Below, in pieces: positions 4,402 to 61,950 of a stretch of DNA of 61,958 nucleotides. A model generated the notes under the pieces. The model saw only the letters and a list, made by a program, of their open reading frames with translations. It ran no database searches and had not been told where the DNA came from. The stretch's first letter is position 1. Each line of letters opens with the position of its first letter. The translations under genes were made by a program, and so were the position numbers. Source of the DNA: Gemmatimonadota bacterium (GTDB lineage Bacteria > Gemmatimonadota > Gemmatimonadetes > Longimicrobiales > Gaopeijiaceae); NCBI GenBank assembly GCA_028874985.1, contig JAPPGI010000177.1, positions 1 to 61,958 on the forward strand, read 5' to 3'.

Positions 4402-4425
4402 GGCTACGCTCCGGTCATGCTGGGT

Positions 4426-4475
4426 TTACCGCTTGTACACCGGAGTCGACATTCCTCTCCGCTCCCGGGGTTGCA
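4426..4475 (-). repeat. Untranslated copy of the ank4 C-terminal coding end
   Basis: Just beyond the stop of ankyrin gene 2, the reverse strand would encode PRERRGMSTPVYKR. This closely matches the real C-terminus of ankyrin gene 4 (PWERVKMSTPVDKK, 11426-11475). In gene 2 an earlier stop leaves this tail outside the reading frame. It is a relic of duplication: the ancestral gene probably ended with this tail. It now forms part of the 94-bp spacer before ankyrin gene 1. Confidence 0.6.
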
Positions 4476-4495
4476 GCGGCCGGATCTCCATCGCA

Positions 4496-7921: not shown

Positions 7922-7978
7922 GGCCTTCCCCCGGTCACCTTCAGATTGCTTGTTGTCCACGGGTTCCTCCAGGGCGGT

Positions 7979-10900: not shown

Positions 10901-11401
10901 CAGCAGCAACGCCCGGACGACGGCGGGATTGGGGTTCCGCCAGGCCGAGTGCAGGGGCGTTTGGCGGTGGGCGTTCCGCGCGCCGATGTCCGCGCCGGAC
11001 GCCACCAGCGCGTCGACGATGCCGGGCGTGGGATTCAGGGCCGCAGCCGTGTGCAGCGGAGTGCTGCCGTTGCTGGTGCGCAGATTGGGGTCCGCGCCGG
11101 CGTCCGCGACAAGGGCGATGACGAGGGGGTCGGTCGCGTATTCGGCGGCGAGGAGAATCGCGCTTCTGTAGGGAGAAGGATTGTGGGGATTCGCGCCCGC
11201 CTGGAGACACTCCCGCACAAGCGAGGCCGACGCCGACTTGAAGAAGGTCCGCGTGCTCCAGTCGTCGCAGGTGGGTTGGGTGGTGGTCGATGCGGCGGGC
11301 ATATGTGCCGGGTCCGTCCCGGGGTGCGGGGTGGGGGCGCCCGCGCAGGCCGCGACGAGAAGGAAGGCCGGCGACTTGATCGCGATGACGGTCGGTCTCA
11401 C
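7979..11401 (-). CDS. Ankyrin-repeat lipoprotein 3 of 4
   Basis: A 1140-residue paralogue starting at GTG 11401 with GGGAG seven bases upstream. The signal peptide ends in LLVAAC with lipobox Cys19. The mature part opens with PTCDDWS and carries the four Cys-pair modules: N-terminal, then near residues 186 (CLNW), 580 (CYWDGG) and 778 (CERW), separated by canonical ankyrin repeats (TPLHLAA, GADVNARD). It lies 24 bp downstream of gene 4 and its stop is 57 bp before the start of gene 2, so the array is probably one transcription unit. The conserved Cys in an exported protein suggest structural disulfides. Function beyond protein binding is unknown. Confidence 0.9.
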   Translation of the reverse strand: MRPTVIAIKSPAFLLVAACAGAPTPHPGTDPAHMPAASTTTQPTCDDWSTRTFFKSASASLVRECLQAGANPHNPSPYRSAILLAAEYATDPLVIALVADAGADPNLRTSNGSTPLHTAAALNPTPGIVDALVASGADIGARNAHRQTPLHSAWRNPNPAVVRALLLSGADPVATDHHGRFADPTGCLNWNTAVFARLALLTGFERCLARGSDVHARDGDGKTILHHAAAKADTSVIALLIRAGADVKARSADGTAPLHEAARSERPAIVRLLLRAGADIHALAGLGATPLHSAARNEGAEIVTALLDAGAEVDAGAGGYGTPLLYALGHGRNTGINEAPANALLEAGAGVNAADSDGNTPLLETLSENRPVGAASEFALRLLALGADPNAGGEYGTTALHLATYNADPALIRALLAAGADIHARSYRARSALHAAAEASSPEIITLLAAAGLDVDGPDEDASTPLHLAVSSRGHRSPPRYREEPTWRSRTFALLEADADPNVRNGQGDTPLHLAAGRPDTVLVSGLVRAGADVDARNGLGQTPLHKARARSNFAAIAKLVELGADPEARDNAGRIADPVCYWDGGGNPFRSWSFLANAPAESVKGCVESGVPIDAPGLEGVTPLAGMVSTIGCCADFENVLRELVAAGANVNARDEKGRTPLHRAVFWSHAYAESALVTVTSALLDAGADPNARDHGGSTPLHAAARALGRNSTVMPLLAAAGADLDARDHEGRTPLHLAHWGSGYHPDPARVPTLLRLGADPAARDSAGNSADPAACERWGAESFFAVATAEIVAGCLADGADARALVDSSFSIRPFFHAAARTPDTAVISVLLQAGADVHGRHGLRRYTPLHTTAEHGTAGVVRALLEAGADVDAWAAGFLVDHGWSWTPLHLAAGQNPEPGVAAALVGAGADLEARSREGYTPLHQAATNANPAVTALLLEAGADVHAVSWTGETPLHVAARANSNPAVLNLLLEAGADVNAPDPNGHAPLHKAAWYSAHPGIVNALIAGGAHVNARDRDGHVPSGRRANDRTPLWLASDRMGRDHPTWNAAVVEALVRAGGNLELPDGAGRTPLHAAALRHPAVFPLLLRLGADPSARDEDGWTPLDYALKNRSLEGLEEVRRMREASRPGSPPP

Positions 11402-11425
11402 GGTCTACTCCCTGTCAACTGTATA

Positions 11426-11475
11426 TTACTTCTTGTCAACCGGAGTTGACATTTTTACCCGCTCCCACGGCTGAA
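11426..11475 (-). repeat. Gene-end repeat with GTCAAC palindrome
   Basis: The 3' end of ankyrin gene 4 and the spacer before gene 3. It contains GTCAAC-CGGA-GTTGAC (11435-11450), a perfect 6-bp inverted repeat, and a further GTCAAC at 11413-11418. The related but degraded sequence lies at 4426-4475. The inverted repeat could be a weak hairpin between two genes of the array or a relic of the duplication; no regulator is implied by the sequence itself. Confidence 0.4.
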
Positions 11476-14400
11476 GCGCTTCATTCTCCCTCGCGTAGTC
11501 CATCGGTGTCTTCCACCTGGCGTCGCGGGCTTCCGGATCGGAGCCCAGCCGCAGGAGCAGCGGGACGACGTCGGGCCTCCGAAGCGCTGCCCGGTGCAGC
11601 ACGGTGCGCCCGTCAAGGTCGGTCAGCTCCAGGTCCGCGCCCGCGCGCGCAAGCGCCTCGATCACGGCAGGGTGTCCGTCGTTGCGAACCGCCAGGTACA
11701 GGGGTGACAGGTGGGTGGCGGGCGCGGACGCGGAGTCGATGCGTACGAGCGTTCCCCGCCCGTCTACATCCGCGCCCGCCGCGACGAGTGCCGCTACGCT
11801 GGCCGGAACTGCCCAGTAGAGGGGAGTCAGGTTGCCGGACCATCCCCAGTGGGACCAGTCGCTGTTCTCTCCGCGTGCATTCGGGTCGGCTCCGGCTTCC
11901 AGCAGGAGGGCGAGCACCGCCGTGTTCGGGTTCGCGGCGGCGTGGTGGAGCGGCGTGTCCCCGTCGAACATCCGGGCGTTCACGTTGGCGCCGGCCTCCA
12001 GCAGGAGCTTCGCCACCTCGGGGTTCGGGTTCCGTGCGGCCGTGTGCAGCGGAGTGCCGCCCCATAGCGAGGGTGCGTTGACGTGGGCGCCGGCTGCGAG
12101 GAGCAGGGCGGCGACATCCGGATTCGGATTGGACGCCGCACGGTGCAGGGGGGTCCGGTTCCCCCGGGAATCGAAGGAAGGGCCGAGCTCCCTCCCCCTT
12201 GCGTGCGGGTCCGCCCCCGCCTGAAGCAGAGCCCGCACGGCGGCGGGGGTGCCGAATTCGGCGGCCTCGTGAAGGGGCGTGTAGCCGAATCTGTCGCGAA
12301 CATGCACATCCGTCCCCGCTTCCACCAGGACGCTGATCACTGCGGAATCCCGCGCGTGGACGGAAGCCAGGTGCAGCAGCGTGGGCCATTTGCGGTATTC
12401 CATTCTCGGCCATGGGTTCGGGTCGGCGCCCGCCTCGAGGCAGGCGGTCACGATGTCGACGCTGGCCGCGGCGAAGAAGGTCGCGGTCCCCCAACGCTCG
12501 CAGGTCGTGGGATCGGCCAGGTTCCCCGCGCGATCCCGCGCGGTCGGATCCGCCCCGGCTCCCAGCAGCCTCATCACGGTGGCCGGCCGGTCCGCTCCCA
12601 GGGCCACATGCAGCGGCGTCCGCCCGTCGCTCATTCGGGCATCCACCTCCGCGCCGGCCTCCACCAGGGCGGTGACGGCGTGAGCGCGCTCCGCCCTTCC
12701 AAGCACTCTCCGGTGTCGCGAAGCGGCAACATGCAGCGGGGTCTCGCCCAGGTGCGTGCGGGCGTTCACGTCCGCGTCCGCCTGCAACAGGAGCTGCAGG
12801 ATCGTGTCCTCCTCAGTTGCCAGCGCGGCGATGTGCATAGGAGTCCAACCCTGCGAATTGCGCGCGTTCACATCGGCACCCGCACCCACCAGCGCAGCTG
12901 CGGCGACCTTGGCGCGGGCACCGCCCCAGGCGACCGCGTGGAGCGGTGTTTCCGCATCGTCGTCGGTCACGTTGGGATCCGCCCCCGCCGCGACGAGGAG
13001 GGCGATCTTCTCGGGAACGCCCCGCTCGCGCCGGAAACCTCCATCGGCCAGGTCCACCAGCAGAGGGAATCGACCGGACCAGCGGGGGCCGTCCACCCGG
13101 GCACCGGCCTCCAGACAGTCGCGCACACTTTCGAGGGGGGCCCACCCCAGAAACCACCCATCCAGATCGCACATGGGCGCGTCCCTCCGATCGACGTTCT
13201 GCGAAACCGGGGCGACGCCTTCCGAACCGGGGGCGGCCCTCTCGGGTCCTGGACCGGCCCCGAGCGCGAGCAGCCTGCGGGCGCCCGCCGGGTTGCCGGT
13301 CTTGCGGGCCACGTCGAGCGGGGTCTCGCCGTTCCCGTTGAGCGTGTTCACACCGGCCCCGGCGCTGGCCAGCAGGGAAACCACGGCCGTGTCCCCGCCC
13401 GCAGCCGCCAGGTGCAGGGGCGTGTCGCCCTTCGCGTCCTGAACATCCGGATTCGCCCCCGCCTCCAGCAGCGCGGCCACGCGCACGTCGGCACCATCCC
13501 CGGGGACCGCCTTGTGCAGCGGCAGCGAACCATCCGCCGGGCTCCGGCTGTTGACCTCCGCTCCGGCCGCCACGAGGAGCCGGATGACCTCGGGTTCGGC
13601 GGATTCGGCGGCGGCTTCGATTGCCGATTCCCCGTATTCCGTCAGGGCGTTCGGATCCGCGCCGGCCGCCAGCAGGGCACCGACCAGTGTCGCGCCTCCG
13701 TATTGCGCAGCCCTGTAGAGCGGCGTTATTCCATACTCGCCGCGCTGGTCGGCGTTCGCGCCGGCCGCCAGCAACTGAAGAGCCAGTTCCGTCGCGGTCG
13801 CCGGTGCCGAACGCAGTCGCCTGAGAGCCTTCGTCAACGGCGTACCACCATACTTTTCCGCCGCATCGGTGTCCGCGCCAGCCTCCAGCAAGACCGACAC
13901 GGTGGCCGGGTTCCGGCCCTCCACCGCGTTGTGGAGCGGCGTGGTCCCGCCGCTGTTGCGTGCATTCACGTATGCGCCGAACGCCAGCATCCGCGCCGTG
14001 ACAACCGCATCCAGCGAGGCGGCGCCGTGGAGGGCGGTGTTTCCGTGCTGGTCGCGCGCGAACACGTCCGCGCCTTCCTCCAGGCATCGCGCATAGTCGT
14101 CGGGGGTCGCGGCGCGACGGAAGTTCGACGTGTGCCAGTCCCCGCAGTAGGTGGGGCTGGCGATCCGGTCGATATCGTCGCTCCCGAGACCACGGGCCCC
14201 CAACCGCACCAGTTCGCGCATGACCGCCACTCGATTCGTGCCCAGGTCGCCGAGACGGCTGCCGGCCCGGGCCACTTCCAGCGGCGTCTTGCCGGAGGGG
14301 CCGGGAAGATTGGGGTCGGCCCCCGCCTCCACCAGGGCGGTGACGACGGCCGGGTCGCCGGAGATCGCCGCCACGTGGAGTGGGGCGACGCCGTCCCGGT

Positions 14401-14959
14401 CCCTGGCGTTCGGATCCACACCGGCTTCCACCAGCGCGGCAATGACCCCGACATGTCTGGAGTTCCGGTCGGCGGCCTCGTGCAGAGGGGTCAGGCCATC
14501 CCAGGTCCGGGCATGCGCATCCGCGCCCGCGGCGACGAGCAGCGAGATGACGGCCGGATGCGGCGTCTCTCCCGCCGCGACGAAGAGGGGGGGCAGGGGG
14601 TAAAGGCCCGGGGCCCCGTTGGGGTCCGCGCCCGCCAGGAGGCACTCGCCTACGTCCTCCGGCGAGGCCTGGCGGAAGAAGGCCTGCGTGCCCCAGTTGG
14701 CGCAGGTGGTGTCGGCGGGGTTGGGGGGTTCCGTGTGTGGGAAGGCGCCGGCGAAAGACGTAGTTGGGTACCCAATCCGCTGGCTGATGGCCTGGACCGT
14801 TGGGATGTGGGCGGGTGCGAGCGGGGGGTCCGCCGGCGAGGCGCCCGCGCAGGCCGCGGCCAGGAAGGGGGTGAGGCCGAGGAGAGGGCTCCGGCGGAAG
14901 CCGGCCGGAAGTGTTTGAAGGGGGAGTTGTCCACGGGCTGCAGGCACGGACTGTCTCAT
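11426..14959 (-). CDS. Ankyrin-repeat lipoprotein 4 of 4, first gene of the array
   Basis: About 1177 residues from ATG 14959, chosen because AAGGAGGAAG lies directly upstream; a longer frame reaches 15049 without such a site. The signal ends PFLAAACAGA, a lipobox, after an unusually long n-region. The mature part has a Thr/Pro linker, then TTCANWG, the first Cys-pair module. Others are near residues 271 (CGDW), 595 (CDLDGWFLGW, more divergent) and 817 (CERWGTATFF). Ankyrin repeats fill the rest. The C-terminal tail (VKMSTPVDKK) is intact only here. It is more divergent than the other three and heads the leftward unit, with a promoter candidate about 100 bp upstream. Confidence 0.88.
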   Translation of the reverse strand: MRQSVPAARGQLPLQTLPAGFRRSPLLGLTPFLAAACAGASPADPPLAPAHIPTVQAISQRIGYPTTSFAGAFPHTEPPNPADTTCANWGTQAFFRQASPEDVGECLLAGADPNGAPGLYPLPPLFVAAGETPHPAVISLLVAAGADAHARTWDGLTPLHEAADRNSRHVGVIAALVEAGVDPNARDRDGVAPLHVAAISGDPAVVTALVEAGADPNLPGPSGKTPLEVARAGSRLGDLGTNRVAVMRELVRLGARGLGSDDIDRIASPTYCGDWHTSNFRRAATPDDYARCLEEGADVFARDQHGNTALHGAASLDAVVTARMLAFGAYVNARNSGGTTPLHNAVEGRNPATVSVLLEAGADTDAAEKYGGTPLTKALRRLRSAPATATELALQLLAAGANADQRGEYGITPLYRAAQYGGATLVGALLAAGADPNALTEYGESAIEAAAESAEPEVIRLLVAAGAEVNSRSPADGSLPLHKAVPGDGADVRVAALLEAGANPDVQDAKGDTPLHLAAAGGDTAVVSLLASAGAGVNTLNGNGETPLDVARKTGNPAGARRLLALGAGPGPERAAPGSEGVAPVSQNVDRRDAPMCDLDGWFLGWAPLESVRDCLEAGARVDGPRWSGRFPLLVDLADGGFRRERGVPEKIALLVAAGADPNVTDDDAETPLHAVAWGGARAKVAAAALVGAGADVNARNSQGWTPMHIAALATEEDTILQLLLQADADVNARTHLGETPLHVAASRHRRVLGRAERAHAVTALVEAGAEVDARMSDGRTPLHVALGADRPATVMRLLGAGADPTARDRAGNLADPTTCERWGTATFFAAASVDIVTACLEAGADPNPWPRMEYRKWPTLLHLASVHARDSAVISVLVEAGTDVHVRDRFGYTPLHEAAEFGTPAAVRALLQAGADPHARGRELGPSFDSRGNRTPLHRAASNPNPDVAALLLAAGAHVNAPSLWGGTPLHTAARNPNPEVAKLLLEAGANVNARMFDGDTPLHHAAANPNTAVLALLLEAGADPNARGENSDWSHWGWSGNLTPLYWAVPASVAALVAAGADVDGRGTLVRIDSASAPATHLSPLYLAVRNDGHPAVIEALARAGADLELTDLDGRTVLHRAALRRPDVVPLLLRLGSDPEARDARWKTPMDYARENEALQPWERVKMSTPVDKK

Positions 14960-15059
14960 GCTTCCTCCTTGGCCCAGCGGCATCGGCCGGGCCGAAGATC
15001 CGGAACGGCTACGCGGAATCCTCCGCTTCCACATGTTCACCAGCTCCATTGATCATCCC

Positions 15060-48187: not shown

Positions 48188-48552
48188 GGGTGGACAGTTC
48201 CGGGGTGGCGCGCGTGGCCGAACCGCCGAGGCCGGGGGTCACCGTCTTCCTTCCCTCCCTCCTGGGGCCGGTCACCGGGGGCGTCCGCGAGCTGACGGTG
48301 CGCGGCGGATCGCTGCGGGAGGTCTTCGCCGACCTGATCGAGCGCGAGCCGCGGCTCAGGCCCCACCTCTTCAACGAGGCGGGCGACTTGCGGCGCCACG
48401 TGCTGTGCTTTCACAACGGGACGAACACGCGCTGGCTCGCCGGTCCGTCCCCCGGGGGCGTCGATTCGCCGGTGGAGCGAACGGACGGATGGGCCACACC
48501 GGTGGGGGAGGGGGACACGATCCTGTTCATGCAGGCGGTGTCGGGTGGGTAG
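48184..48552 (+). CDS. MoaD/ThiS-like ubiquitin-fold protein ending in GG
   Basis: 122 residues from GTG 48184. It has a ubiquitin-like fold: VTVFLPSLLGPVTGG, LREVFADLIEREPRLRPHLF, a middle loop and DTILFMQAVSGG. The C-terminal diglycine is exactly where sulfur carriers such as MoaD and ThiS become adenylated and thiocarboxylated. It differs from plain MoaD by a long mid-loop. It could feed sulfur to an unknown enzyme, possibly with the BNR protein coupled upstream. No E1-like activating enzyme is in the window. Confidence 0.75.
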   Translation: MRVDSSGVARVAEPPRPGVTVFLPSLLGPVTGGVRELTVRGGSLREVFADLIEREPRLRPHLFNEAGDLRRHVLCFHNGTNTRWLAGPSPGGVDSPVERTDGWATPVGEGDTILFMQAVSGG

Positions 48553-50290
48553 CCCCATTGACCGGCGCGGCCGGTCGGTCCTCCGAACTGAGCGCGAGCT
48601 GGAACGCCGCCAGACTCTCGGAGATCCCGTCCCCGGCATGGCGGAACTCCTCGGGGATCGTGCGCTGGCGCGCCATTGCGCGCCGCAGCGCCCCCTGTCT
48701 GGCCCGGTCCGCGACTCCCGGTGCCGCATCGGACCCCCACCCGGCTTCATTGAACGAAGCCAACTCCGAATCCAGGTACGCCTTGAATTCCCTGAGAACG
48801 GTCTGCTGTCGCGTGAGCTTCTCGCAGTGATAACCCATGGCGGCCAGGCGGATTGCCAGCGGCAGGAATCGCGGATGGTCCCTGGAGACCCTGGCGATGT
48901 AGCGTGAGAATACCGGCAACTGGTCCGGCGTCAGGCGCCGCCGGATTCCCATGATGCCCAGATAGAGAAGGTGCTTGCTCACCGGCTTGTAGATGTGCGG
49001 TACCGGATTGAGGTTGTCCAGCAGGGTCAGGCAGCGGTCGAAATAGTTCTCCAGCGTCGAATCGTAGATGGTTCCGACGACCCGGAGATACCCTTCCACC
49101 AGCGTCCGGGGATCCATCTGCGGCTTGAAGTTCAGGGCCGTGGCGTCGATTTCGACGGGTTTGTCCAACAACCGGTTCTCGCGCTCCAGCCGGGTCCAGA
49201 GGTTCGTTCCCTTGAGTGCGGTCAGCAACCCGACCAGCGCGATCGGAATCCCGGCCTCCTGGATGAACTCGATCTGGGCGTCGAAGGCGTCGTCGTCGTC
49301 GTCGTCGAGGCCGAGGATGAAGCCGCCCAGAACCATCATTCCCTTCCGCTGGATCCTGCGCACGGACGTGAACAGGTAGTTGTCGTCGCGCATGTCGAGA
49401 TTCTGGGGCTTCTTCATCTTCCTGAGGGCCTTCGGGTTGGGCGTCTCGATGCCTAGGAAGACGGCGTCGAAGCCGGCCTCGATCATGTCGTCCATCAGGT
49501 CGTTCATCCGGACGAGATTGACGCTCGCTTCGGTGAACAGCGAATAGGGATGGCCGCGCTCCTTCTGCCATTCGGCGATCACTGGGAGAAGCCTCGAAAC
49601 CTCGCGCTTGTTGCCGATGAAGTTGTCGTCGACCAGGAAGAGCGGACCCCGCCACCCCAGCTCGTACAGGCGGTCGAACTCGGCCACCATCTGCTCCGGC
49701 GACTTCGTGCGGGACACGCGGCCGTACAGCTTGGTGATGTCGCAGAACTCGCAGTCGAAGGGGCATCCCCGCGAGAACTGGAGACACATCGAGTGATACT
49801 CGCTCATGTCGATGAGGTCGAAACGGGGAACCGGAGCCGTGCTCATGTCCGGCTTCCTCGGGGCGCGGTAGACGGCCCGCGCGGTGCCGTTCTCCAGGTC
49901 GCGAAGGAAGGTCGGGAAGGTCTCCTCGACCTCGTCGAGCACGAAATGATCGATTCCCTCCATCTCTTCGTGAAAGGTGGTGGGGTGCGGTCCGCCGGCG
50001 ATGACCGGAACCCGCGCGCGGTTGCAGCGCTCGACGACCAGCTCGAGCGAGGGGCGCTGCGGAATCATGGTCGACGTGAAGGCCAGGTCCGCCCACTCCA
50101 GATCGGCGTCCTCTAGCGCGGTCACGTTGAGGTCGACCACGCGCAGGTTGTACCGGGATGGGAACATCGCGGCCACGGTGAGCAGACCGAGCGGAGGAAA
50201 GGCCGCCTTGATGCCCAGCAGGTCCAGGGCGTAGTTGTTCCCCCAGTACGTGGGAGGGTGCTTCGGGTAGACGAGGAGGGCGTTCGTCAT
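48527..50290 (-). CDS. B12-binding radical SAM enzyme (HpnR-like)
   Basis: 587 residues. The N-terminal part (LLVYPKHPPTYWGNNYALDL, VIAGGPHPTTFHEEM) is a cobalamin-binding domain. The radical SAM motif C-x3-C-x2-C is RGCPFDCEFCDITK, followed by FLVDDNFIGNKREVSRLLP and GFDAVFLGIETPN. A C-terminal DUF4070-like extension follows (about residues 430-530). The layout resembles hopanoid C-3 methylase HpnR and related methylases; the actual substrate cannot be proven. Run of Asp (LDDDDDDAFD) in a linker. It overlaps the MoaD-like gene tail to tail by 26 bp. The nearby cobalamin adenosyltransferase is consistent with B12 use. Confidence 0.8.
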   Translation of the reverse strand: MTNALLVYPKHPPTYWGNNYALDLLGIKAAFPPLGLLTVAAMFPSRYNLRVVDLNVTALEDADLEWADLAFTSTMIPQRPSLELVVERCNRARVPVIAGGPHPTTFHEEMEGIDHFVLDEVEETFPTFLRDLENGTARAVYRAPRKPDMSTAPVPRFDLIDMSEYHSMCLQFSRGCPFDCEFCDITKLYGRVSRTKSPEQMVAEFDRLYELGWRGPLFLVDDNFIGNKREVSRLLPVIAEWQKERGHPYSLFTEASVNLVRMNDLMDDMIEAGFDAVFLGIETPNPKALRKMKKPQNLDMRDDNYLFTSVRRIQRKGMMVLGGFILGLDDDDDDAFDAQIEFIQEAGIPIALVGLLTALKGTNLWTRLERENRLLDKPVEIDATALNFKPQMDPRTLVEGYLRVVGTIYDSTLENYFDRCLTLLDNLNPVPHIYKPVSKHLLYLGIMGIRRRLTPDQLPVFSRYIARVSRDHPRFLPLAIRLAAMGYHCEKLTRQQTVLREFKAYLDSELASFNEAGWGSDAAPGVADRARQGALRRAMARQRTIPEEFRHAGDGISESLAAFQLALSSEDRPAAPVNGATHPTPPA

Positions 50291-50592: not shown

Positions 50593-51971
50593 TTGTCCGC
50601 TGGTCCGGATTCGGCCAAGGCGGCGGCGTGCGTGGCCTTTGTGATCGGCGCGGAGACGCAGGGCCATCCGTCGCGGACGCGTTCATTGGCGGACTGGACG
50701 GCAGGGCATTCGGACGCGATCCACGGCGTGGCCGATCTCGACGCGGACGCTCTGCGCCGGGACATCTACGATGGCACGGAACCTCATATCCTCGTGGAAG
50801 TCAGCGAACTGAGAGAGCCCGAAGGCAGGTTGCTGGTCGTTCGCATACCCCCGGGAATGCCTCCGCACACCACATCGGACGGCGTGGCCAGGATTAGGGT
50901 CGGCAAGGAAAGCAAGCCGCTGACAGGATCCAATCTGGCCAATCTGGTCGTGTCCCGGGGCAGGCGGGACCTTACCGCCGAGATCCTCCCGGATGTGAGA
51001 TTCTCCGACCTCGATCCGCAGCAATTCGACCGCCTGCGCCGACTGGTCAGGGCCGATCCAGCCAGAAGCGATCTGGCGGAACTCGAGAACCGAAAGCTGG
51101 CGGAAGCGCTCGGCCTTGCATCACGCAGAGGCGTTACCCTGGCGGCAGTCCTACTCCTCGGATCGCGGTCCTCGCTTTCCCGCTCCGTCCCGCGTCATGA
51201 ACTGGTCTTCTCCAGATCGCGCGGCCCCACACGATACGATGTGCGCCGGGATCTGCGTGCTCCCCTGTTGGAAACCCTGGAGGAAGTCCGGCGCCTGCTG
51301 ACCGCGAACCTTCGGGTCATGCCCATCGGACCCGCAGGATTCCACCAGCTCGAAATCCCGGACATCACATGGTGGATCGCGCGGGAGGCCGTGCTGAATG
51401 CGCTGGTTCACCGCGACTATTTCCTGCACCAGTCCATTCACCTGCGCGCTACGAGGCCGACGAGTCCCACGTCAAGCTGGTCTTGCCCACACGGACACAC
51501 GCCGACTTTGCCCGATTCGTTCAGGACATTCGAAGCGGAGGTGAAGAACTCGGGGTCGACGAGCTGATCGTCTTTCGTGGATTGGCACGGCGACCCGTTC
51601 TCGACCGGTGGTCGGCGTCCAGGATCCTCCAGCTTTCCGCCAACGAGGCCGCGGAAATCCTGGTGTCGCTCAGGATACGTGGATTCCTCGTTCCCCAGGG
51701 AAGGGGCCGAGGGACGAAATACCGCCTGGCCCGCCGATACGCGGCACTGATCGAATCCGCCGGTGACAACCAGGACATCTGGCTGGACGAGGAGTCCGTA
51801 AGGCTTCGACTCCTCACGATTCTCCCCGAGAGGGGCCGTCTGACAAACGCGGAGATCCGACGTTTGTCAGGGTACTCCAGGACTCAGGTGCTGAGGCTCA
51901 TGCGCTCATTGCGACGGGAGGGGGGCTCACTACGTGGCGGCGGATCCGGAGGAGTAGCGCTACTGCGGTGA
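50593..51971 (+). pseudogene. AlbA_2/HATPase DNA-binding regulator, internally deleted
   Basis: The first frame (50593 to about 51462) has a Schlafen-type AlbA_2 domain (LLVVRIPPGMPPHTTSDGVA, RIRVGKESKPLTGSNLAN), then the start of a histidine-kinase-type ATPase fold (ITWWIAREAVLNALVHRDYF, LHQSIHLR). Then the frame jumps to the C-terminal part (YEADESHVKLVLPTRTHADF, FARFVQDIR) in the next frame, which normally follows more than 100 residues later. The join is at CTGCGCGCTACGAG (51445-51460). A winged helix ends the second piece (LTNAEIRRLSGYSRTQVLRL). The N-terminus also lacks an obvious start. Related proteins are RecG/Schlafen-like regulators in defence or mobile contexts. Confidence 0.8.
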
Positions 51972-54503
51972 TAGGGTGGGTCTGTCTATCGACTTCCCGG
52001 CCCCCGCCGCTCGCCCGACCCGCCCCGCAGCGAACTCCCGATACCTGCCGAACGCGTCGTTCACGATGTCTTCGGTCAAGCCGTAGTCCGCGATGTCATA
52101 CCTGTGCCGCTTCTCGCTGCGTCTCTGCTCTTCCTGCTTCCAGAACCAGGCCCTCATCGCTTCGGCGGACCGCGGCTCGATCGACCACCCGAAGCGGCGG
52201 TAGACGCCGCCCACCACCGCCAGGGGGTTGCGCACCAGGTCGTAGAAGCTCACATCGTGCCAGCGATCCTCCAGCTCCGGGTGTGACTGCCGGAAACCGA
52301 CCGCCCGGTCCAGCATCCGGCTCATCGCCTTCAGCTGCTCGGTCCCGAGCTGGTCGCGCGGGAGCGGTTCGCTGATCTTCGACCGGACCCGCTCCACCAG
52401 GCTGCACCACGATCCCATGAACTCGACGGGTTCGCGATGCGTCTGGATGAACAGGGCGTCGGGATACGCCTCGAGCAGGGCCCCCAGCTCCATGAGGTGG
52501 GTCGGCATCTTGAACAGCCATTGCCCCTGCAGGCCGGGGTGGCACTCCCTGCGCTGGAAGTTGTAGTGCTGCATGGTGGCGCGATGGACCTGATAGGCCT
52601 CCCTGGTGCCGCTCTCTTCGAGCCAGCGCTCGTATCCGGGCAGACGGTATCTGGTGGTGAACACCCATGTCTTGAGCGACAACCTGAGGATGGGGATATC
52701 CTCCTCCGGTTCGTCGAGCGCGATATGGTGCATGCCCGCGAAGGAATCGACGATGCCCGACGCGTCGAATACGTCCGCCGCCTTGATGCGGCGGGGATCT
52801 TCTGGCGTCCCGGCGACCGCGGCGTAGTGGCCGTCGGGGATGACGGGCTCCACGTATTCGTAGGCCCGTAAGGCCCAGAACTGCCGGTCGCGTGCCAGCA
52901 GGCGGTGCAGGAAGGTCGTTCCCGTCCTGTTGATGCCCACGATGAACACCGGGCGCACGATTCTCTGCCGCCCGATTTCCGGCAGCCGCAGGCGCTCTGC
53001 GGCCAGTTCGGCATTGTTGCGCAGGATTCGGCACAGATCGAAGACGCAGTGTCCGATACGCCTTGCCGTCAGGCCGGCTTCCGGAGAATTGAAGGCTTCA
53101 ACGAGACGGGTCAGCCCCTCGAGCATCCACTCGGGGTAGGTGGAATCGAAGGGCACTCCGTTGTTCCTGGCGTAGGCCCCGGCCTGGTTCAACAGGTTGT
53201 CGAGGCTCAGCCGGTCCTGGGGAATCGCCTGCGGCCACTCTTCCCGATGATCCCTGATCCAACGGTTGTAGCGCACATACCTGGTGAGTGGACCTGGCCA
53301 ACTGATGGCGCCCGGGCAGTCCTCGCGGATGGCGCGGTCGGAGACCGGCAGAGTCCGGACCGCTTCGGTGCCGCGGAACCAATAGGGGGCGAAGTGGTCG
53401 ACCAGGGCCCAGTTGCGGGCAAGCGGAGAGGCGTCGCCGCGGGCCTGGCAGGCGCGCTTGAAGGCGAGGTACGAAACCTCCGGATAGTCCAGCCCGAACT
53501 CCGCGAGCCGCATGGCCCTGTAGGACGGTGCAGGGTTGCAACAGCTGTAGATGGTGAAGCGCCGATTCGGGTTCAGGGAGACTTCGGTGCAGATCCGGGT
53601 CATGGTATCCGCGGGGTCGTCGTTGAAATGCACCGTGAATCCTTGCGGGATCATTCCGACATCGACGACCGCGGCGAAGAGACGCTGGGCGATGTTGCCC
53701 GGCTGGGTGTATCCGGTGGAGGCCAGGCTGGTCTGCCCCATTCGGAAGATGGCGGCCGGCAGGCCGGCCGAGTGCGCGTACAGGATGGCCTGTTCGGCCA
53801 CCAGCTTGCTCCAGGGATACCCGAGGAACCCGAGCGGGATCGCCCTCTTCATGCGGACCAGGTCCGGCTGCATGTGGTCGTCGATGCGGCAGTCGCCGTA
53901 CTCGCGGGCGAAGGAGAAGATGTACTCGGGGAACACCGCCATGGTCGAGACGTGGAACAGGTGCTTGAGGCGGGTGTTCAGGCACAGACCCAGGACGTTT
54001 TGGACGCTGAAGGCGTTGACGCGGCGGATCGACCGGTAGGAGGCGTTGAGGCTGAGGGTTGCCGCAAGGTGGTAGACGGCGTCAGTCTCCCGGGAGAGCC
54101 GCCCGAAGTCGGCGCCGGAGAGTCCGAAGTGCGATTCCGCGACGTCACCGGCGTACACGTGGATCCGGGGCGCGAAGGCATCGTCCCAGGTCTCGGCGTG
54201 CCCCATGTTCGCGCGCAGACGCTCGAAGCCGTGCTCCGCCGATTCGGCCCGCACGATGCAGTGGACCGTCAGATTGGAATCATGCGCGAGGAGGTCTCGA
54301 ACCAGGAAGCGACCCATGAATCCCGTTGCTCCGGTGACCAGGACACGGCGGAAGTCGGCGGGAGAGACGGGGTCCTCGGGCGAGGCGTCCTGGAGCGCAC
54401 CGCGGACAAAGCGGCGCAACGCGGCAAGGTCGGCCTGGCAATCGGGCGGCAGGGTGCCCGCCAGGGGTGGAACCGGATGCTGTCTGGCGGGCGGCCGGGC
54501 CAT
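51960..54503 (-). CDS. Thioester reductase-sulfotransferase fusion (SwfB-like)
   Basis: About 847 residues from ATG 54503, eight bases after the PKS stop. Residues about 50-350 are an NAD(P)-dependent thioester reductase domain: VLVTGATGFMGRFLVRDLL, STMAVFPEY and Y-x3-K in GYPWSKLVAE. Residues about 560-830 are a sulfotransferase: PAPS motif VFIVGINRTGTTFLHRLLA and FKMPTHLMELGALLEAYP. The reductase would release the acyl chain from the PKS carrier protein as an aldehyde or alcohol, and the sulfotransferase could sulfate it; the product might be a sulfated alkyl chain. I recall the same domain pair in swf-type loci of sponge symbionts, not verified here. Both motifs look intact. The 3' end overlaps the neighbouring pseudogene by 12 bp. 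Confidence 0.85.
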   Translation of the reverse strand: MARPPARQHPVPPLAGTLPPDCQADLAALRRFVRGALQDASPEDPVSPADFRRVLVTGATGFMGRFLVRDLLAHDSNLTVHCIVRAESAEHGFERLRANMGHAETWDDAFAPRIHVYAGDVAESHFGLSGADFGRLSRETDAVYHLAATLSLNASYRSIRRVNAFSVQNVLGLCLNTRLKHLFHVSTMAVFPEYIFSFAREYGDCRIDDHMQPDLVRMKRAIPLGFLGYPWSKLVAEQAILYAHSAGLPAAIFRMGQTSLASTGYTQPGNIAQRLFAAVVDVGMIPQGFTVHFNDDPADTMTRICTEVSLNPNRRFTIYSCCNPAPSYRAMRLAEFGLDYPEVSYLAFKRACQARGDASPLARNWALVDHFAPYWFRGTEAVRTLPVSDRAIREDCPGAISWPGPLTRYVRYNRWIRDHREEWPQAIPQDRLSLDNLLNQAGAYARNNGVPFDSTYPEWMLEGLTRLVEAFNSPEAGLTARRIGHCVFDLCRILRNNAELAAERLRLPEIGRQRIVRPVFIVGINRTGTTFLHRLLARDRQFWALRAYEYVEPVIPDGHYAAVAGTPEDPRRIKAADVFDASGIVDSFAGMHHIALDEPEEDIPILRLSLKTWVFTTRYRLPGYERWLEESGTREAYQVHRATMQHYNFQRRECHPGLQGQWLFKMPTHLMELGALLEAYPDALFIQTHREPVEFMGSWCSLVERVRSKISEPLPRDQLGTEQLKAMSRMLDRAVGFRQSHPELEDRWHDVSFYDLVRNPLAVVGGVYRRFGWSIEPRSAEAMRAWFWKQEEQRRSEKRHRYDIADYGLTEDIVNDAFGRYREFAAGRVGRAAGAGKSIDRPTLSPQ

Positions 54504-54511
54504 GTCGTGGG

Positions 54512-57500
54512 TCAGCGGTCCCGGCCGGCCGTGACCTTCGCAGCACCGGCAGGCATAGGGCGATCTCCGGATCCGTCGACGCCGGCGACCGGGGAGAATC
54601 CTCCGTTCGGAAAGTGATCCTCGTGCCGGTTCGCAAAGGGAGATATTCTTCTGTGCGCCCGCCGCGTGGACTGCCGGGACTCGGCTGCGGAAGCGTCCGG
54701 TGCGGCCTCCGCTTCGGACGCTCCATCCGACGCGCCACCCTCGACGATGGTCTGCGCGAGGGAAAGGGCCGTGGCGGTGGTCATCAGCTCCAGCGCGCTG
54801 ACCTGGTGGTTGTACTGCGTCTGAATGAACGCGCCGAGTTCCGCCACCGAAATCGAGGTGAGCCCGAAGCTCGACAGGGGCTCGGTCATCTCGCCCTCCT
54901 CGTGTCCGCACAGATCGGCGACCTTGGCCGAGATCTGGGCGACGACCCCCTCGACGGTCAGATCACCGCCCGCATCCACCTCGAACGCCGCCTGATTGTT
55001 CACGAGCCGTCCGTTGCGCATGTAGTCGGGGGAATCGACGGACCAGGGCGGGTTGGAGAAAAGCGCGGTGACGAGATGGTCCTGCTCGGGCATGGTGCGC
55101 AGGGCGTAGTCGAGATTGGCGATCGCGAAGTTGGCGCTCACGGTCGTCATCCCGGCCGCTCTCATCATGCGCATGACGTGGAGGCTACGCGCCGCCATCC
55201 CGACTTCGGTGACCGGACCCAGGTTGTAGGAGAGAGCGGGGAGGCCGCGGCGCCGGCGCCACGCGGCCAGTCCGTCGAGGAAGGCGCTCGCGCCGCTGTA
55301 GTTGATCTGTCCGAGATTGCCGAAGGTCGAGGCTATCGAGGAGAAGAGCACGAAATGGTCCAGGTCACATTCGGTGGTGGCGCGGTGCAGGTTCAGGGCG
55401 CCCTGCGCCTTGGGGGCGAACACCTTCCTGAGAGACTCGGGAGACGTGTCGAGGAACGAGCGGTCCTCGAGCGTTCCCGCCAGGTGGAACACCCCCTTCA
55501 ACGGGCGCTCCAGCCTGGCGATGCACCGCTCAACGTCGGCCTGGCTGCGCACGTCGCCCGCGACGATGTCGATTTCGTAGTCCTCTTCCATCTTCGACAG
55601 GGTGGTGTTCTGCCGGATCCAGTGCAGGTCCCGGCATCGCTCCGGATCCCTGTCCATCAGGGTCAGGTGCCGCGCCCCGACGGCGATCAGGTAGGGGACG
55701 AAACGGAGGCCGAAACCACCCAGGCCGCCCGTCACCAGGTAGGTCGCGCCGGGATCGAGGAAGGGCCGTGTGTCCGCGATCCCGAAACCGGGATCCGTGC
55801 CGGCCGGAGGTGCCGTGAGGACCAGCTTTCCTTGGTGCCGGCCGGTCGTCATGAGTCGAAGCGCCCTGGCGTAGTCCCCGTACGGGAAGGCCGTGAGCGC
55901 CGGCGGGGGCACCGCACCCTCCGCCATCAGGTCCAGACAGGCCTGGGAAAGGACGTGGGACAGCACCGGATCGTCCAGCATCAACCGGTCCACGTCGATG
56001 GCGGCGAAGCGGAGGTTCCTGCGGAACACGCGCATGCTGAGCGAGTTGTCGGTGTAGATGTCGACCTTACCGATCTCGCAGTGCCAGCCGGAGGGACGCA
56101 GGGCCTTGAGGCAGAGCGCGATGTGATGGCCCGCGAGCGAATTCAGCACGACGTCGACGCCCTTGCCTCCCGTGGCCGCCATCAGGTCGTCGTACCACCG
56201 GAGGCTGTGTGAATCGAAGGCTCCCCGCGCCCCTATCGCCAACAGCTGTTCGCGCTTGCTCTCGTTGCCCGCGGTCGTGTAGATCTCCGCGCCCACGTGC
56301 TTCGCCAGCGCGATGGCGGCCTGTCCGACACCTCCCATGGCCGAGTGGATGAGGACCCGCTGTCCCTTCCTCAGACGCGCCAGGTGGATCAGCGCGTAGT
56401 AGGCGGTGACGTAGACCGACAGCGAGGATGCGGCCTCCTCCATGCCGATCCGGTCCGGCCTGAGGAACGCGAGGTGCTCGTTCACCACGACGCGGTTGCC
56501 GATGCAGCCGCCCGTCGTCACCGCCACCTCGTCGCCGACGCTCAGCCGCTTCACGCCGTCGCCGATGCGCCGGACGATTCCGCTGCCCTCGATGCCCACT
56601 TCGCGTCCGAGCGCCGAGCGCTCGTAGGCCATCGCGGGTAGGAGCCCGAGCGTGACCATGACGTCGCGGAAATTCAGCGCCGCCGCGGTCATCTCGATCT
56701 CCACGTCGGACGGACCCGGCGGGGGAGGCTCGAACGTCGTCATCTGCCGTCCGCTGACCTGGCCCGGGTTGTCGAGGCGGAGCCGGTAGGAGGCGTCCTC
56801 GCCTGCGGGCAGAAGCGGAGCACGGTCGCGTACGCTCACGATCCGCGGAACCCACACCCGTCCCTCCCGCACCGCCACTTCGCGCTCGCGCAGGTCGCAC
56901 CGGTCGAGGAGCGCCATCGCCTCCAGGTCGCTCCCGGCGCCCAGGTCCACGAGCTGGAAATCGATCCGCGTGTCCTCGGCGAGCAGCTCCAGGGCGAGAC
57001 TGCGAACGGCTCCCCACAGCGTGCTCCCGCGCGGGTCGTCCACGCCGCAGACGGCCCCGTGCGTCACGATGGTGAGGCGGCAGTTCCGCGTCGCGTTCTC
57101 GAGACGGTACGGCGCGATGGCCTGAAGGAAGGCGACCAGCTGCCAGACCGCCCGCTCACCCGTGGGATCGGTGGGATCCGCGCCGCAGAAGATGTCGATC
57201 GCGGCCAGATCGGCCCCCCGGGGCCATTCTTCGAGCGACGCGAAGTCGCTGTTCTCGTAGCATGCCCACGGCACCTGGTGAACCTCGGGCGAGTCGAGCA
57301 GGGCCACCCAGTCCGAAGCCCGGCCGTCCGGTGCGCCGATGACCCAGCGCGGGCGTGACTCGTCCCCCGACCGTTCCGGTTCGCGGTAGCTCCGCGGCGC
57401 CTGGAGCAGCGTGGTGCGCCGGCCCGCGTGGAGTGTCGACCAGCCGTCTCCCGGCTCGATGGCCTCGCCGTCGTCGTGGGAAACCAGCGCGAGACCCCCG

Positions 57501-58558
57501 GGGACGGCGAGCCGACGCAGGAGCGTCCACTCCTTCTGCCCGAAGTCCCGCGCCTCGGCATGCAGGAAGACGATTTCGGCAGCCGCCGCACGCAGCAGCC
57601 CGAAGTCTCCGTCCAGCAGCTCATCCGCCGATTCCGCCTCCGGATCGAGCGGCGCGAACCGAATCGCGGCGTCCCGGTGGTTGAACGCATCGTAGTGGGC
57701 CCGTGTATGATCCTCGTCCTCGCCGAGGAGCCAGTATTCCGTCTGCGCGTCGGCACCCGACAGCTGTTCGACGCATCGGTTGAGGATCGTCCGCTTGGGC
57801 GATCGCCGGCCGGCCACCTCGATCACGTGACACGCGTACCGGTGACCGGGCCCGCCCTTCTCGAAGGCGGCGATCAGCGCGGCGGGATTGACCTCGCCGT
57901 CCGCGATCGCGTCGCCGACAGGCGGCTCCGGAGGCACGAACTTGGGCTGCCACTCGACGAGATGCTTGCTGTCGGGCACGTCGCTCCAGCGGGGGTTGCT
58001 GTTGAAGGAGTGGTATTCGCCGATGTGGGCGATCAGGTGTCCCGTGGCGCGGTCGTAGAAGGTGAGCCGCCCGATGTACAGTTCGCCCAGAGGCTTGGTG
58101 TACTGGCCCCGCTCGTCCACATCGTACCATTCCCCCGTGTCCACCAGGTGACACGCGATCCGCGGCCCCGTCGGGGGACGCAGGAAGGTCACGTTGCAGG
58201 CCCGCTGCGGCATGGAGAAGAAATCGGGCAGGCGCATCAGGTAGCGCAGGAAGATCTGGAGTCCGCCGTCCGTCAACGGGGGATACAGGACATATCCCTC
58301 CTCCTGCGCGTCGCCCCACAGATCTCCGTCGACTTCGATGTCCAGCAACATGTCCGTCGAGTTGGCGTCCATGTCGATCTGCCTGATGCTGCGGAACTCG
58401 GGGCCGAACTCGAAGTCGTCGCCCACGACCGCCTCGATCTGTTCGTAGAACTCGTCGCCGGTGCTCAGGGGCTCGGGATCGAAGTCCGAGGCCAGCACGT
58501 CGTCCAGGGTCGCGAAGGCGTTCACCTCGTGATCGGCCGCCACCCGGCGGACCCGTCC
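54512..58558 (-). CDS. PKS third frame: end of DH, degenerate MT, ER, KR, ACP
   Basis: The frame opens at VAADHEVNAFATLDD and continues to the stop at 54512. The end of DH is seen as YPPLTDGGLQIFL. The methyltransferase-like part (near 57900-57350) lacks the SAM motif GAGTGG: the place reads VIEVAGRRSPKRTI. ER has the NADPH motif HSAMGGVGQAAIALAK. KR has TGGLGGFGL and the Ser of FSSIAST; its Tyr motif is NYSGASAFLD, with Ser where Asn is usual. ACP has the phosphopantetheine Ser in FGLTSISVAEL (Thr in place of the common Asp). This fragment could be translated alone but would lack KS and AT. Confidence 0.8.
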   Translation of the reverse strand, partial: GRVRRVAADHEVNAFATLDDVLASDFDPEPLSTGDEFYEQIEAVVGDDFEFGPEFRSIRQIDMDANSTDMLLDIEVDGDLWGDAQEEGYVLYPPLTDGGLQIFLRYLMRLPDFFSMPQRACNVTFLRPPTGPRIACHLVDTGEWYDVDERGQYTKPLGELYIGRLTFYDRATGHLIAHIGEYHSFNSNPRWSDVPDSKHLVEWQPKFVPPEPPVGDAIADGEVNPAALIAAFEKGGPGHRYACHVIEVAGRRSPKRTILNRCVEQLSGADAQTEYWLLGEDEDHTRAHYDAFNHRDAAIRFAPLDPEAESADELLDGDFGLLRAAAAEIVFLHAEARDFGQKEWTLLRRLAVPGGLALVSHDDGEAIEPGDGWSTLHAGRRTTLLQAPRSYREPERSGDESRPRWVIGAPDGRASDWVALLDSPEVHQVPWACYENSDFASLEEWPRGADLAAIDIFCGADPTDPTGERAVWQLVAFLQAIAPYRLENATRNCRLTIVTHGAVCGVDDPRGSTLWGAVRSLALELLAEDTRIDFQLVDLGAGSDLEAMALLDRCDLREREVAVREGRVWVPRIVSVRDRAPLLPAGEDASYRLRLDNPGQVSGRQMTTFEPPPPGPSDVEIEMTAAALNFRDVMVTLGLLPAMAYERSALGREVGIEGSGIVRRIGDGVKRLSVGDEVAVTTGGCIGNRVVVNEHLAFLRPDRIGMEEAASSLSVYVTAYYALIHLARLRKGQRVLIHSAMGGVGQAAIALAKHVGAEIYTTAGNESKREQLLAIGARGAFDSHSLRWYDDLMAATGGKGVDVVLNSLAGHHIALCLKALRPSGWHCEIGKVDIYTDNSLSMRVFRRNLRFAAIDVDRLMLDDPVLSHVLSQACLDLMAEGAVPPPALTAFPYGDYARALRLMTTGRHQGKLVLTAPPAGTDPGFGIADTRPFLDPGATYLVTGGLGGFGLRFVPYLIAVGARHLTLMDRDPERCRDLHWIRQNTTLSKMEEDYEIDIVAGDVRSQADVERCIARLERPLKGVFHLAGTLEDRSFLDTSPESLRKVFAPKAQGALNLHRATTECDLDHFVLFSSIASTFGNLGQINYSGASAFLDGLAAWRRRRGLPALSYNLGPVTEVGMAARSLHVMRMMRAAGMTTVSANFAIANLDYALRTMPEQDHLVTALFSNPPWSVDSPDYMRNGRLVNNQAAFEVDAGGDLTVEGVVAQISAKVADLCGHEEGEMTEPLSSFGLTSISVAELGAFIQTQYNHQVSALELMTTATALSLAQTIVEGGASDGASEAEAAPDASAAESRQSTRRAHRRISPFANRHEDHFPNGGFSPVAGVDGSGDRPMPAGAAKVTAGRDR

Positions 58559-58561
58559 CCC

Positions 58562-59739
58562 GGCAGTGCAGCGTGCCCGCGTCGTCGTCCTCGAAGGACC
58601 TGGACGAGATGGTGAATGTGAACTGGTCCGGAGCGTTGGGGACCGGGAACAGGGCGGTCTGGAGTCGCACCGGCATCCTGCCGACGGGGGTGTGCTGGAT
58701 GAACTCGATCTCCTCGATGTTGATGGGAGTGCCGGAGAACGCCTGCAACAGCAGCTCGATATAGCCGGCCGCCGGGATGATGGGCGCCCTGTGAACCCGG
58801 TGGTCGGTCAACCAGGGGAAATCGCGCTCGGAAAGCCGGCCCTCGTATAGGATGTGATCGCAGGGGACCCGGTGGCCGACCAGCGGTCCGTGCGAATACT
58901 CGCCGCGATTGACGAACATCTCGTCGTCGCTCAGGTCGTCGCTGACCGTCGTCTCCTCCGTCGGATGGCCGGGCAGGAGATGGGCGATGGGCTCGGGGCG
59001 GGGATACTGGGATTCGAAATCGAGCGCGACGCCGGCCCGGTAGAGGGCTCCCAGGGTTTGCTGGAACCCCAGGCACACGTCCTCGTCCTTCATGAGAGAG
59101 GGAACGCTCTCCCCTGACGACGCGCCCACCTCCAGGCACTGCCGGATCAGCGGCTGAAGGGCGCTGTGTGGCGCGATCTCGAGGAACACGTGCGGCTGGA
59201 TCTCGCGCCTCACCGTGTCCATCGCCGCCGCGAAGCGGACCGGCTCGCGGATGTTGGACCACCAGTATTCGCTGTTCAGCCTGTCCACGACCGTGCCGGT
59301 GACCGAAGACACCATGCGGACATCGCCGTCGAAAGCGCACTCGTCCAGGAAGGCCAGGGCTTCGAGCGCATCTTCGTGCAACGGGTCCATCGCAGTCGAA
59401 TGGAAGGCGATGTTTCCCGGAATCAGCCGGTTCTGGAGGTCGCGGCGGTCGAGCTCCACCATCACGGGCGTCAGCGCCGACTCCCTTCCGCAGATGACCG
59501 TATTGGCCGGCGAGTTCTCGCATGCGATCTCGACCTGCGCGCGTCCGTGGTTGCCGGCACGGAACGAAACGCCGAGTTCCTCCAGCAGTCCCTCCACCCC
59601 GGGGAGGTCCAGTCCGATCGCCAGCATGCGCCCGGAACCGGCCACCCGCTGCTGCAGCGTGGCACGGTGATAGACCAGGTGCGTCGCGTCCGCGAGGGAA
59701 AGCGCACCGGACGCGTAGGCCGCGGCCACTTCGCCGGAA
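58562..59739 (-). CDS. PKS second frame: C-terminal AT and first half of DH
   Basis: Follows the 7-bp duplication. It reads SSGEVAAAYASGALS, the end of the AT catalytic loop, then NRLIPGNIAFHSTAMDPLH (the loop with the catalytic His) and the AT end. The DH begins at EYSHGPLVGHRVP, with its catalytic His in WLTDHRVHRAPIIPAAGYIE. The usual Gly of HxxxG is Arg here. The piece ends at SFEDDDAGTLHCRG, where the extra G shifts the frame. Confidence 0.75.
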
Positions 59740-59753
59740 CTGTGACCTGTGAC
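59740..59753. repeat. 7-bp tandem duplication at the AT active site
   Basis: CTGTGAC occurs twice in a row. A single copy gives the expected V-V-G-H-S-S-G-E-V-A across the join; two copies shift the frame by one. Tandem duplications of 7 bp are typical of replication slippage rather than of base-calling error. Confidence 0.85.
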
Positions 59754-61641
59754 CCACGACGCAATCGGGATGCACACCCCAGGTCGCCAGCAACTCCACC
59801 AGCGCGCACTGGATCATGAAGATGGAGGGCTGGGCCAGCTGCACCTCGTTCAGTTCTTCCTGGCTGGCCGAGAAGCAGGCTTCGCGCAGGGAAACGCCGG
59901 AGTACCGGCTCCACTCCTCCTCGATGGCGTCGACCACCCGCCGGAAGACGGGGTCGGCGTCGTAGAGCGCGCGGCCGCATCCGGCCCACTGGGTACCCTG
60001 TCCGGAGAAGACCATGGCCACCCGTCGCTCGCCCTCGTCCACGGTGGACACCGGAGCGGGGTCATCCACGAAGGCGTCCAGGGCTTCGCCGAGCTCTCGG
60101 CGGTCACGTACCGCAAATGCGGTGCGGGCGGGGAAGTGGGTGCGGCGCCTGCCGAGATTTCCCGCCAGAGTGTAGAGATCGGCGTCCCGCTCATCCAGGC
60201 TTCGCCGGAGGTCCCGCGCGCTTTCCGTCAGGGCGCTTGCCGTGCGTGCCGACAGCGGAATCATGTAGCCTGACTCGGGTGCCACGGGGGCCGACCACAC
60301 CCGGGGCCGTACCGGCCGGTATTCCCGAACCACACAATGCCCGTTGGCGCCGCCGAAACCGAAGGAATTGATACCGACCACGACGGAGCGGTCGGGGAAC
60401 GGCTCGCATGTCGTCTGCACCTGCATCGGGCAGCTGTCGAAGTCGATTTCCAGATTGGGCGCCAGGAAGTTCCTCGATATCGGCGCGAAGGTGCGCCGCT
60501 GCATCATCACGACGACCTTGAGCAGCGCGCAGGTGAAGGCGGCCGCTTCCAGGTGCCCGACGTTGCTCTTGACGCTGGCCACGCGCAGCGGAACGTCGCG
60601 CTCGACGCCGCCGAAGGCCTCGGCGATGGCATTCCCCTCGATGCGGTCGCCCACGACGGTGCCGGTGGCGTGCGCCTCGATGTAGTCGAAGTCCTCGGGC
60701 CCCAGCCCCGCGCGCTCGCATGCGGTGCGCATCAGTTCGACCTGCGAATGGCGGGTCGGAGCGGTGATGTACCGGCCCTGGGCGAGACCGGCGGTGTCGT
60801 CCGCGGTGCCGGCCGTATTCACCGAAGTCGCCTCGATGACGGCGAAGATGTGATCACCGTCCCTTTCGGCTGCCTCCAACGGCTTGATGGCGAAGACGAA
60901 GCACCCTTCGGAGCGCATGTAGCCGTTGGCGTCCGCGTCGAACGAGTGACACCGGCCGTCGGGGCTGATCACGCCGAGGGCATTGAAGGATACGCTGCAC
61001 CTGGCCGAGCCCAGATAGGTCACGCCTCCCACCAGCGCGCGGTCACAATCGCCCTGCCGGATCGCGTTCACCGCCGTGTGCAGGGCGGTGAGGGACGCGG
61101 AACAGGCGGTGGAGCACGAGAGCGACGGCCCCATCAGGTTCAGGTGGTAGGAGATGCGGTTGGCGAGCATGGAGGCGTCGATGCTCAGGATGGCGAACTC
61201 ATTGGATCCGTACAGCGCGCGCCAGTTGGCCGTCGACGCGACCTGGGTCCCGATGAAGACGCCGGTGGGACTGTTCCGCAGTGCGTGCAGATCCCACCCG
61301 GAGCGCTCGCAGCTCTCCCAGGCGCAGTTCAGCAGCATGCGGATCTGGGGATCCATGTAGGTCATCTCATGGAGGGACACGCCGAAGAGGCCCGGGTCCA
61401 TCCGCTGCTCCCCGTCGTCCCTGATCAGCCCCTCGTGGGCGCTCCCGAATCGGCCCGGGCCGGAGAATCCGCCGATCGGCCGGTACCCTCGGCCGTAGCG
61501 GTCGGCGATGGGTTCCCGGACGACTTCGCGTTCCCTCAGCAGGCGCCAGAAGTCGTCGTCCGTGAGAATGCCGCCGGGCATGCGATAGCCGTATCCGACG
61601 ATGGCAACGGGACAGGCGGAGGCCGAGGATGCCGATCTCAC
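59754..61641 (-). CDS. PKS first frame: KS and N-terminal AT
   Basis: Starts CPVAIVGYGYRMPGG, the N-terminus of the ketosynthase. The catalytic Cys is in CSTACSASL, the two His are in EAHATGTVVGD and NVGHLEAA. AT begins RVAMVFSGQGTQWAG and proceeds to DCVVGH, one residue before the active Ser, where the duplication breaks the frame. All KS catalytic residues are present, so this domain is sound. Confidence 0.8.
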
Positions 61642-61713
61642 GTCAGGAAACACCTCCAATGGCGGGTTCGGTCCGGCAGTCCGCGGATATGACCGCTCGA
61701 GTGTCGGGGGGGG

Positions 61714-61764: not shown

Positions 61765-61950
61765 CTACTTTGAGTCGGCGTACTCCTGCATGGCGTTGTC
61801 CGCGATGTCGAACATCCTCTGCAGAACCCGCTTCCGCCGGACCTTGAACGCCTCCACCAACTTCCACAGTGACTCGCGGATTTGCGCGGCCGCCGCCTCC
61901 TTTTCCGGCTCTTCACCTGTCGTGGTGGGTGGGGAGGATCCGAAGCTGAA
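61765..61950 (-). CDS. Partial small frame at window edge
   Basis: A minus-strand frame of 61 residues ends at 61765 (TAG). It reads EKEAAAAQIRESLWKLVEAF, then KVRRKRVLQRM and ADNAMQEYADSK: amphipathic helices with phasin-like composition. No ATG, GTG or TTG opens it within the window before a stop at 61951, so it may begin with a frameshift or a rare start, or may be a chance frame. It is the last feature before the edge. Confidence 0.35.
   Translation of the reverse strand, partial: FSFGSSPPTTTGEEPEKEAAAAQIRESLWKLVEAFKVRRKRVLQRMFDIADNAMQEYADSK

Follow-up and report, generated by a model that had tools for sequence, protein, structure and literature searches.

The DNA analyzed here (the window) is an entire contig of 61,958 bases from a MAG of 4.25 Mb in 230 contigs, and it carries a swfA-swfB-swfC operon, complete in gene content, of a sponge-symbiont-type Gemmatimonadota bacterium whose genus is related to Ca. 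Palauibacter. Operons of this kind are already known, and the present copy is a further member, here in a Gemmatimonadota genome. The swf synthases are among the most widespread synthase families of sponges. Their host and their product had both been called unresolved, the source organism after poribacterial contigs were withdrawn (PMC4245539). The swf-like character of the locus had been proposed from the DNA alone (the original prediction), and it is now borne out by signature motifs, the position of the KS in a tree, the order of the genes, and SwfB orthology; family membership here rests on motifs, architecture, and comparison with named MAG relatives.

The synthase gene swfA (54512-61641, minus strand; possible alternative start codon at 61659) encodes a mono-modular synthase in which domain searches find, from the N terminus, KS (60478-61611), AT (59028-60012), DH (58169-58886), ER (55817-56716), KR (55208-55747), and ACP (54746-54937) domains, in agreement with the single reducing PKS module that had been predicted. 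The module is not one open reading frame over 54512-61641, as had been assumed. Instead, two frame breaks, one inside the AT domain and one inside the DH domain, spread swfA over three frames (58522-61659, 57621-59777, and 54512-58543). All of the published SwfA signatures (PMC3908369) are present: DPQ[I/V]R (here DPQIR) and HATGT in the KS domain, and QCALVEL, FSGQGTQW, GHSSGE, and IAFH in the AT domain, with GHSSGE encoded in the second frame. The Cys-His-His residues of the KS are intact, and the ACP carries GLTSI. An alignment of 43 intact SwfA proteins reveals that the catalytic residues of all six domains are kept, namely the Cys and two His of the KS, Ser and His of the AT, His and Asp of the DH, the active site of the ER, Ser and Tyr of the KR, and Ser of the ACP. 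Upstream of swfA, at 61771-61884 (minus strand), a small conserved gene is cut by the end of the contig, so that its C-terminal part alone is present; the partial sequence is 53-55% identical over 38 residues (E about 1e-11) to the gene found upstream of swfA in relatives.

The KS phylogeny had been named as a check on the assignment. In a maximum likelihood tree, 27 SwfA KS domains fall into one clade with support of 100/100, apart from the modular and WcbR-type synthases, and the KS of the window sits among those of Gemmatimonadota; the comparison set comprised WcbR-type, modular, Deinococcus, and Planktothrix synthases and other synthases of the Palauibacter genus, without Sup and PUFA synthase KS domains. 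The SwfB tree agrees with the KS tree. The same data bear on whether the gene is an ordinary WcbR/RkpA-type capsule or lipopolysaccharide synthase, a reading with a precedent in the literature, as poribacterial swf was first annotated as wcbR (PMC3908369). However, the swf KS domains are fully apart in the tree from two WcbR-type loci with capsule neighbors, the KS motifs differ, and the features that define WcbR (DPQQR, HGTGT, and capsule neighbors) are not found here. Tree and motifs refute a capsule synthase, and the probability that we would still attach to one is vanishingly small.

Eight bases separate the end of swfA at 54512 from the start of swfB at 54503, the spacing that had been predicted. 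The intact swfB gene (51960-54503, minus strand) encodes 847 residues, and the proposed fusion of a reductase with a sulfotransferase is recovered as NAD_binding_4 and Sulfotransfer_3 matches, the thioester reductase spanning residues ~17-430 and the sulfotransferase residues ~503-830. Both active sites are intact, as had been expected from the sequence: the reductase Y-x3-K motif has Y229 and K233, the PAPS site has R526-T-G-T-T, R690, and S698, and 32 homologues show no or almost no variation at these residues. The reductase also keeps TGATGF. Identity between SwfB and its homologues across phyla ranges from 44 to 80%. An AlphaFold2 model of SwfB reached a pLDDT of 88.5 (an earlier model built from 11 sequences, with a pLDDT of 50, was left unused), and a fold search of the PDB with this model returned the terminal reductase of myxalamid biosynthesis (Z 41.5, 2.7 Å over 380 residues) and the mycobacterial sulfotransferases STF9 (Z 38.6) and STF1 (Z 37.7). 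The myxalamid enzyme is one of the four-electron reductases, which form alcohols (PMC2835699). One SwfB homologue from Bryobacterales (L084:10043-12415) has no SwfA within 10 kb upstream and carries an Ala in place of S698 of the PAPS site.

The third gene of the operon, swfC (48527-50290, minus strand), had gone unnoticed although it lies inside the window. The original prediction gave the swf layout a phosphopantetheinyl transferase gene in third place, which was mistaken: the published third gene, swfC, encodes a radical SAM enzyme (PMC3908369), and that report together with the gene content observed here rules out the transferase in this role. The swfC of the window is intact and encodes 587 residues with B12-binding, radical SAM, and DUF4070 domains (Pfam). 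It is 88-93% identical to the swfB-adjacent swfC of most relatives in the genus and is single-copy in the host genome. Its best matches are weak, all far below the cut-off, and are B12 radical-SAM enzymes, including hopanoid/lipid methyltransferases. A match to an Sfp/HetI-type phosphopantetheinyl transferase is found in the host genome on a separate contig (C184). The original prediction had suggested looking for such a gene to the right of the window, but the contig ends there. Between swfB and swfC, an SLFN_AlbA_2 (Schlafen/AlbA-like)/winged-HTH gene is present in two frames (50593-51971, plus strand), and the swfB-swfC gap is 1.67 kb here, compared with no more than about 60 bp in the relatives examined.

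The best explanation of the operon, and in our judgment a probable one, is that it provides for chain building, release of an alcohol, sulfation, and methyl branching to yield an alkyl sulfate. SwfA, charged in trans by a phosphopantetheinyl transferase of the Sfp/HetI type, would assemble an acyl chain from malonyl units with repeated full reduction. The reductase of SwfB would free this chain from the ACP as a primary alcohol at the cost of two NADPH, its sulfotransferase would move sulfate from PAPS onto the primary alcohol, and SwfC would add a methyl group to an unactivated carbon of the chain. The product is likely a long-chain, perhaps methyl-branched, alkyl sulfate. The iteration of SwfA, its substrate, the order of the steps, and the product are inferred from the genes and domains present, the family to which they belong, their intact active-site residues, and their folds. 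The sequence of chain building, reductive release, and sulfation had been put forward in the original prediction, and it fits the published proposal as well as the domain and fold evidence. The authors who described swf suggested a product of this kind but were unable to detect it, heterologous expression gave no new metabolite (PMC3908369), and no alkyl sulfate is tied to swf in the reports consulted. A Streptosporangiaceae (actinobacterial) MAG encodes KS-AT-DH-ER-KR-ACP-reductase-sulfotransferase as one protein of 3180 residues (L099:2933-12475), and this protein supports a single assembly line with a reductase and a sulfotransferase at its end; no other fusion of swfA and swfB was found in 250 genomes of the same order. 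SwfC may act elsewhere because in some loci swfC lies away from swfA and swfB, and 8 of the 13 genomes with such loci show no swfC at all.

A different role for the sulfotransferase, discussed by the swf authors, would be to activate a leaving group in the manner of curacin and olefin synthases, where a sulfotransferase sits beside the release domain (PMC3908369), and the product would then be a hydrocarbon or alkene. However, no thioesterase is present, and the release domain of SwfB is of the alcohol-forming reductase type; the sulfotransferase therefore comes after an alcohol-forming step. The nearest solved folds are STF1 and STF9, and the curacin enzyme is missing from the fold list, although this last point is not decisive. 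We regard a leaving-group role as improbable and favor sulfation of a released alcohol.

The two breaks in swfA were located by comparison with the nearest intact relative (L046, 90-93% amino acid identity). In break 1, 7 bp are duplicated in tandem exactly at the AT active-site GHS codon (about 59742-59760, minus strand), and break 2 is a one-base length difference in a G-run of the DH domain (58555-58566, about 58561, minus strand). An unbroken swfA of about 2350-2450 codons is found in 43 relatives. The dN/dS values of the three swfA segments are 0.12, 0.13, and 0.18, compared with 0.11-0.17 for pairs of intact genes. Because all three segments are thus equal to intact pairs, the breaks are either recent in origin or errors of assembly. 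If the assembly is right, full-length SwfA is not made from the present copy.

Frame breaks in the AT region are also seen in three other Gemmatimonadota genomes, each different and each within about 45 bp of the same codon, such that four different indels fall within a span of ~90 nt (L051 at ~4720, L056 at ~4761, L088 at ~4876, and the window at ~59757). The chance that four of six frame-changing lesions would lie within 90 nt is about 1e-4 as a post hoc estimate. Conservation, GC content, and folding were checked at the site, and nothing unusual was found. The genomes do not agree in the direction of the net shift, which makes programmed frameshifting at this position unlikely. A chimeric assembly between species was rejected, as the nearest relative is the same one on either side of the AT break. 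In Ca. Palauibacter rhopaloidicola (L060), the 5' third of swfA is missing and the remainder starts at codon ~771; a phage-integrase-family gene (L060:122-1282) directly precedes the remaining part.

Whether the breaks are errors or the onset of decay can be weighed from these data. That both are assembly or sequencing errors, with swfA one intact gene as in its 43 relatives, is nearly an even call. The normal dN/dS values of swfA speak for error, as does the frequency with which contigs end in or near swf in the host genus. On the other hand, a 7-bp tandem duplication is atypical of short-read errors, no switch of partner occurs at the AT break, and the breaks of four genomes cluster around one codon, although the site is otherwise ordinary. 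Alternatively, swfA may be a young pseudogene, its function lost in the host species while swfB and swfC were kept, with repeated loss of swfA in the genus. The co-occurrence of two breaks with a gene inserted between swfB and swfC would fit such decay, as would the AT breaks of the three other genomes and the truncated swfA beside an integrase in Ca. Palauibacter rhopaloidicola; moreover, a single-contig genome of the genus has no more than 74 residues that resemble swfB, and another member gave no match. This picture is at odds with purifying selection across all swfA segments and with swfB and swfC genes that are nearly without breaks, and the host genome is a fragmented MAG. We consider the pseudogene a tenable but somewhat doubtful account. 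It is conceivable, though unlikely, that inactivation, reversible or recurrent, genuinely concentrates at the AT active-site region of Palauibacter-type swfA; if so, the production of a sulfated lipid would be switched or repeatedly lost among sponge symbionts.

SwfB or fragments of it (52-85% identity) occur in about 20 of the 23 members of the host genus, and a sample of 24 genomes from the order's other families gave nothing beyond weak SwfB matches. This links swf to a single Gemmatimonadota genus; the majority of its species have the operon, and the contigs concerned reach 448 kb. Named relatives are found in MAGs of Gemmatimonadota, Acidobacteriota, alpha- and gammaproteobacteria, Nitrospirota, Spirochaetota, Binatota, and Rhodothermota. 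Gemmatimonadota loci run A-B-C, and those of several other groups run A-C-B. One genome of the same genus (L045) has the A-C-B order and groups with Acidobacteriota; its swf may reflect horizontal transfer or a misbinned contig. Some bins labeled Gammaproteobacteria (L059 and L097) carry Palauibacter-type swf and may be mislabeled. No relative of swfB was found on viral contigs, and no plasmid record spans both halves of SwfB. Near one intact swf locus, fragments of a second SwfA KS (L078:14594-15084, minus strand; 51-52% identity) are a possible degraded swfA copy. Most members of the genus, and the window's own genome, also encode another, distinct type I synthase of about 3400-3500 residues (L142, L143, and L145). 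Elsewhere in the window, four tandem open reading frames of 1003-1207 residues (1390-15049, minus strand) consist almost entirely of ankyrin repeats. Ankyrin-repeat proteins are a eukaryote-like class that is frequently reported from sponge symbionts. In the available portions of two reports, the sponge MAGs with swf-like clusters are from Nitrospirota, Latescibacterota, and Acidobacteriota (PMC9426513) and from "Thalassonella" of the Tectomicrobia (PMC10227082); the host lists in those portions do not include the Gemmatimonadota, Binatota, Rhodothermota, and alpha- and gammaproteobacterial hosts found here. Taken with this distribution, the resemblance in structure between SwfB and an alcohol-forming reductase plus a sulfotransferase makes the alkyl sulfate hypothesis directly testable.

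The window can be compared with several known systems. The published swf operon (pPS11G3) likewise has the A-B-C order with a small gene upstream of swfA, a KS-AT-DH-ER-KR-ACP swfA with unique KS and AT motifs, a reductase-sulfotransferase swfB, and a B12 radical SAM swfC, whereas in the window swfA is broken twice, a Schlafen/AlbA-type gene splits swfB from swfC, and the host belongs to Gemmatimonadota. The mono-modular mycobacterial synthases of the Pks2/MAS type are also single, fully reducing iterative modules, and Pks2 is among the best NCBIfam matches of SwfA, yet far below the equivalog cut-off; unlike swf, these synthases have no SwfB-like partner, either reductase or sulfotransferase. 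The terminal reductase of myxalamid MxaA and the mycobacterial sulfotransferases STF1 and STF9 share the folds of the two SwfB halves (Z 41.5 and about 38, respectively) but are separate proteins with 24-30% identity, in contrast to the fused SwfB. A contiguous reductase-sulfotransferase is also described for the coccidian type I FAS (cited in PMC3908369), which is, unlike swf, a eukaryotic multimodular protein.
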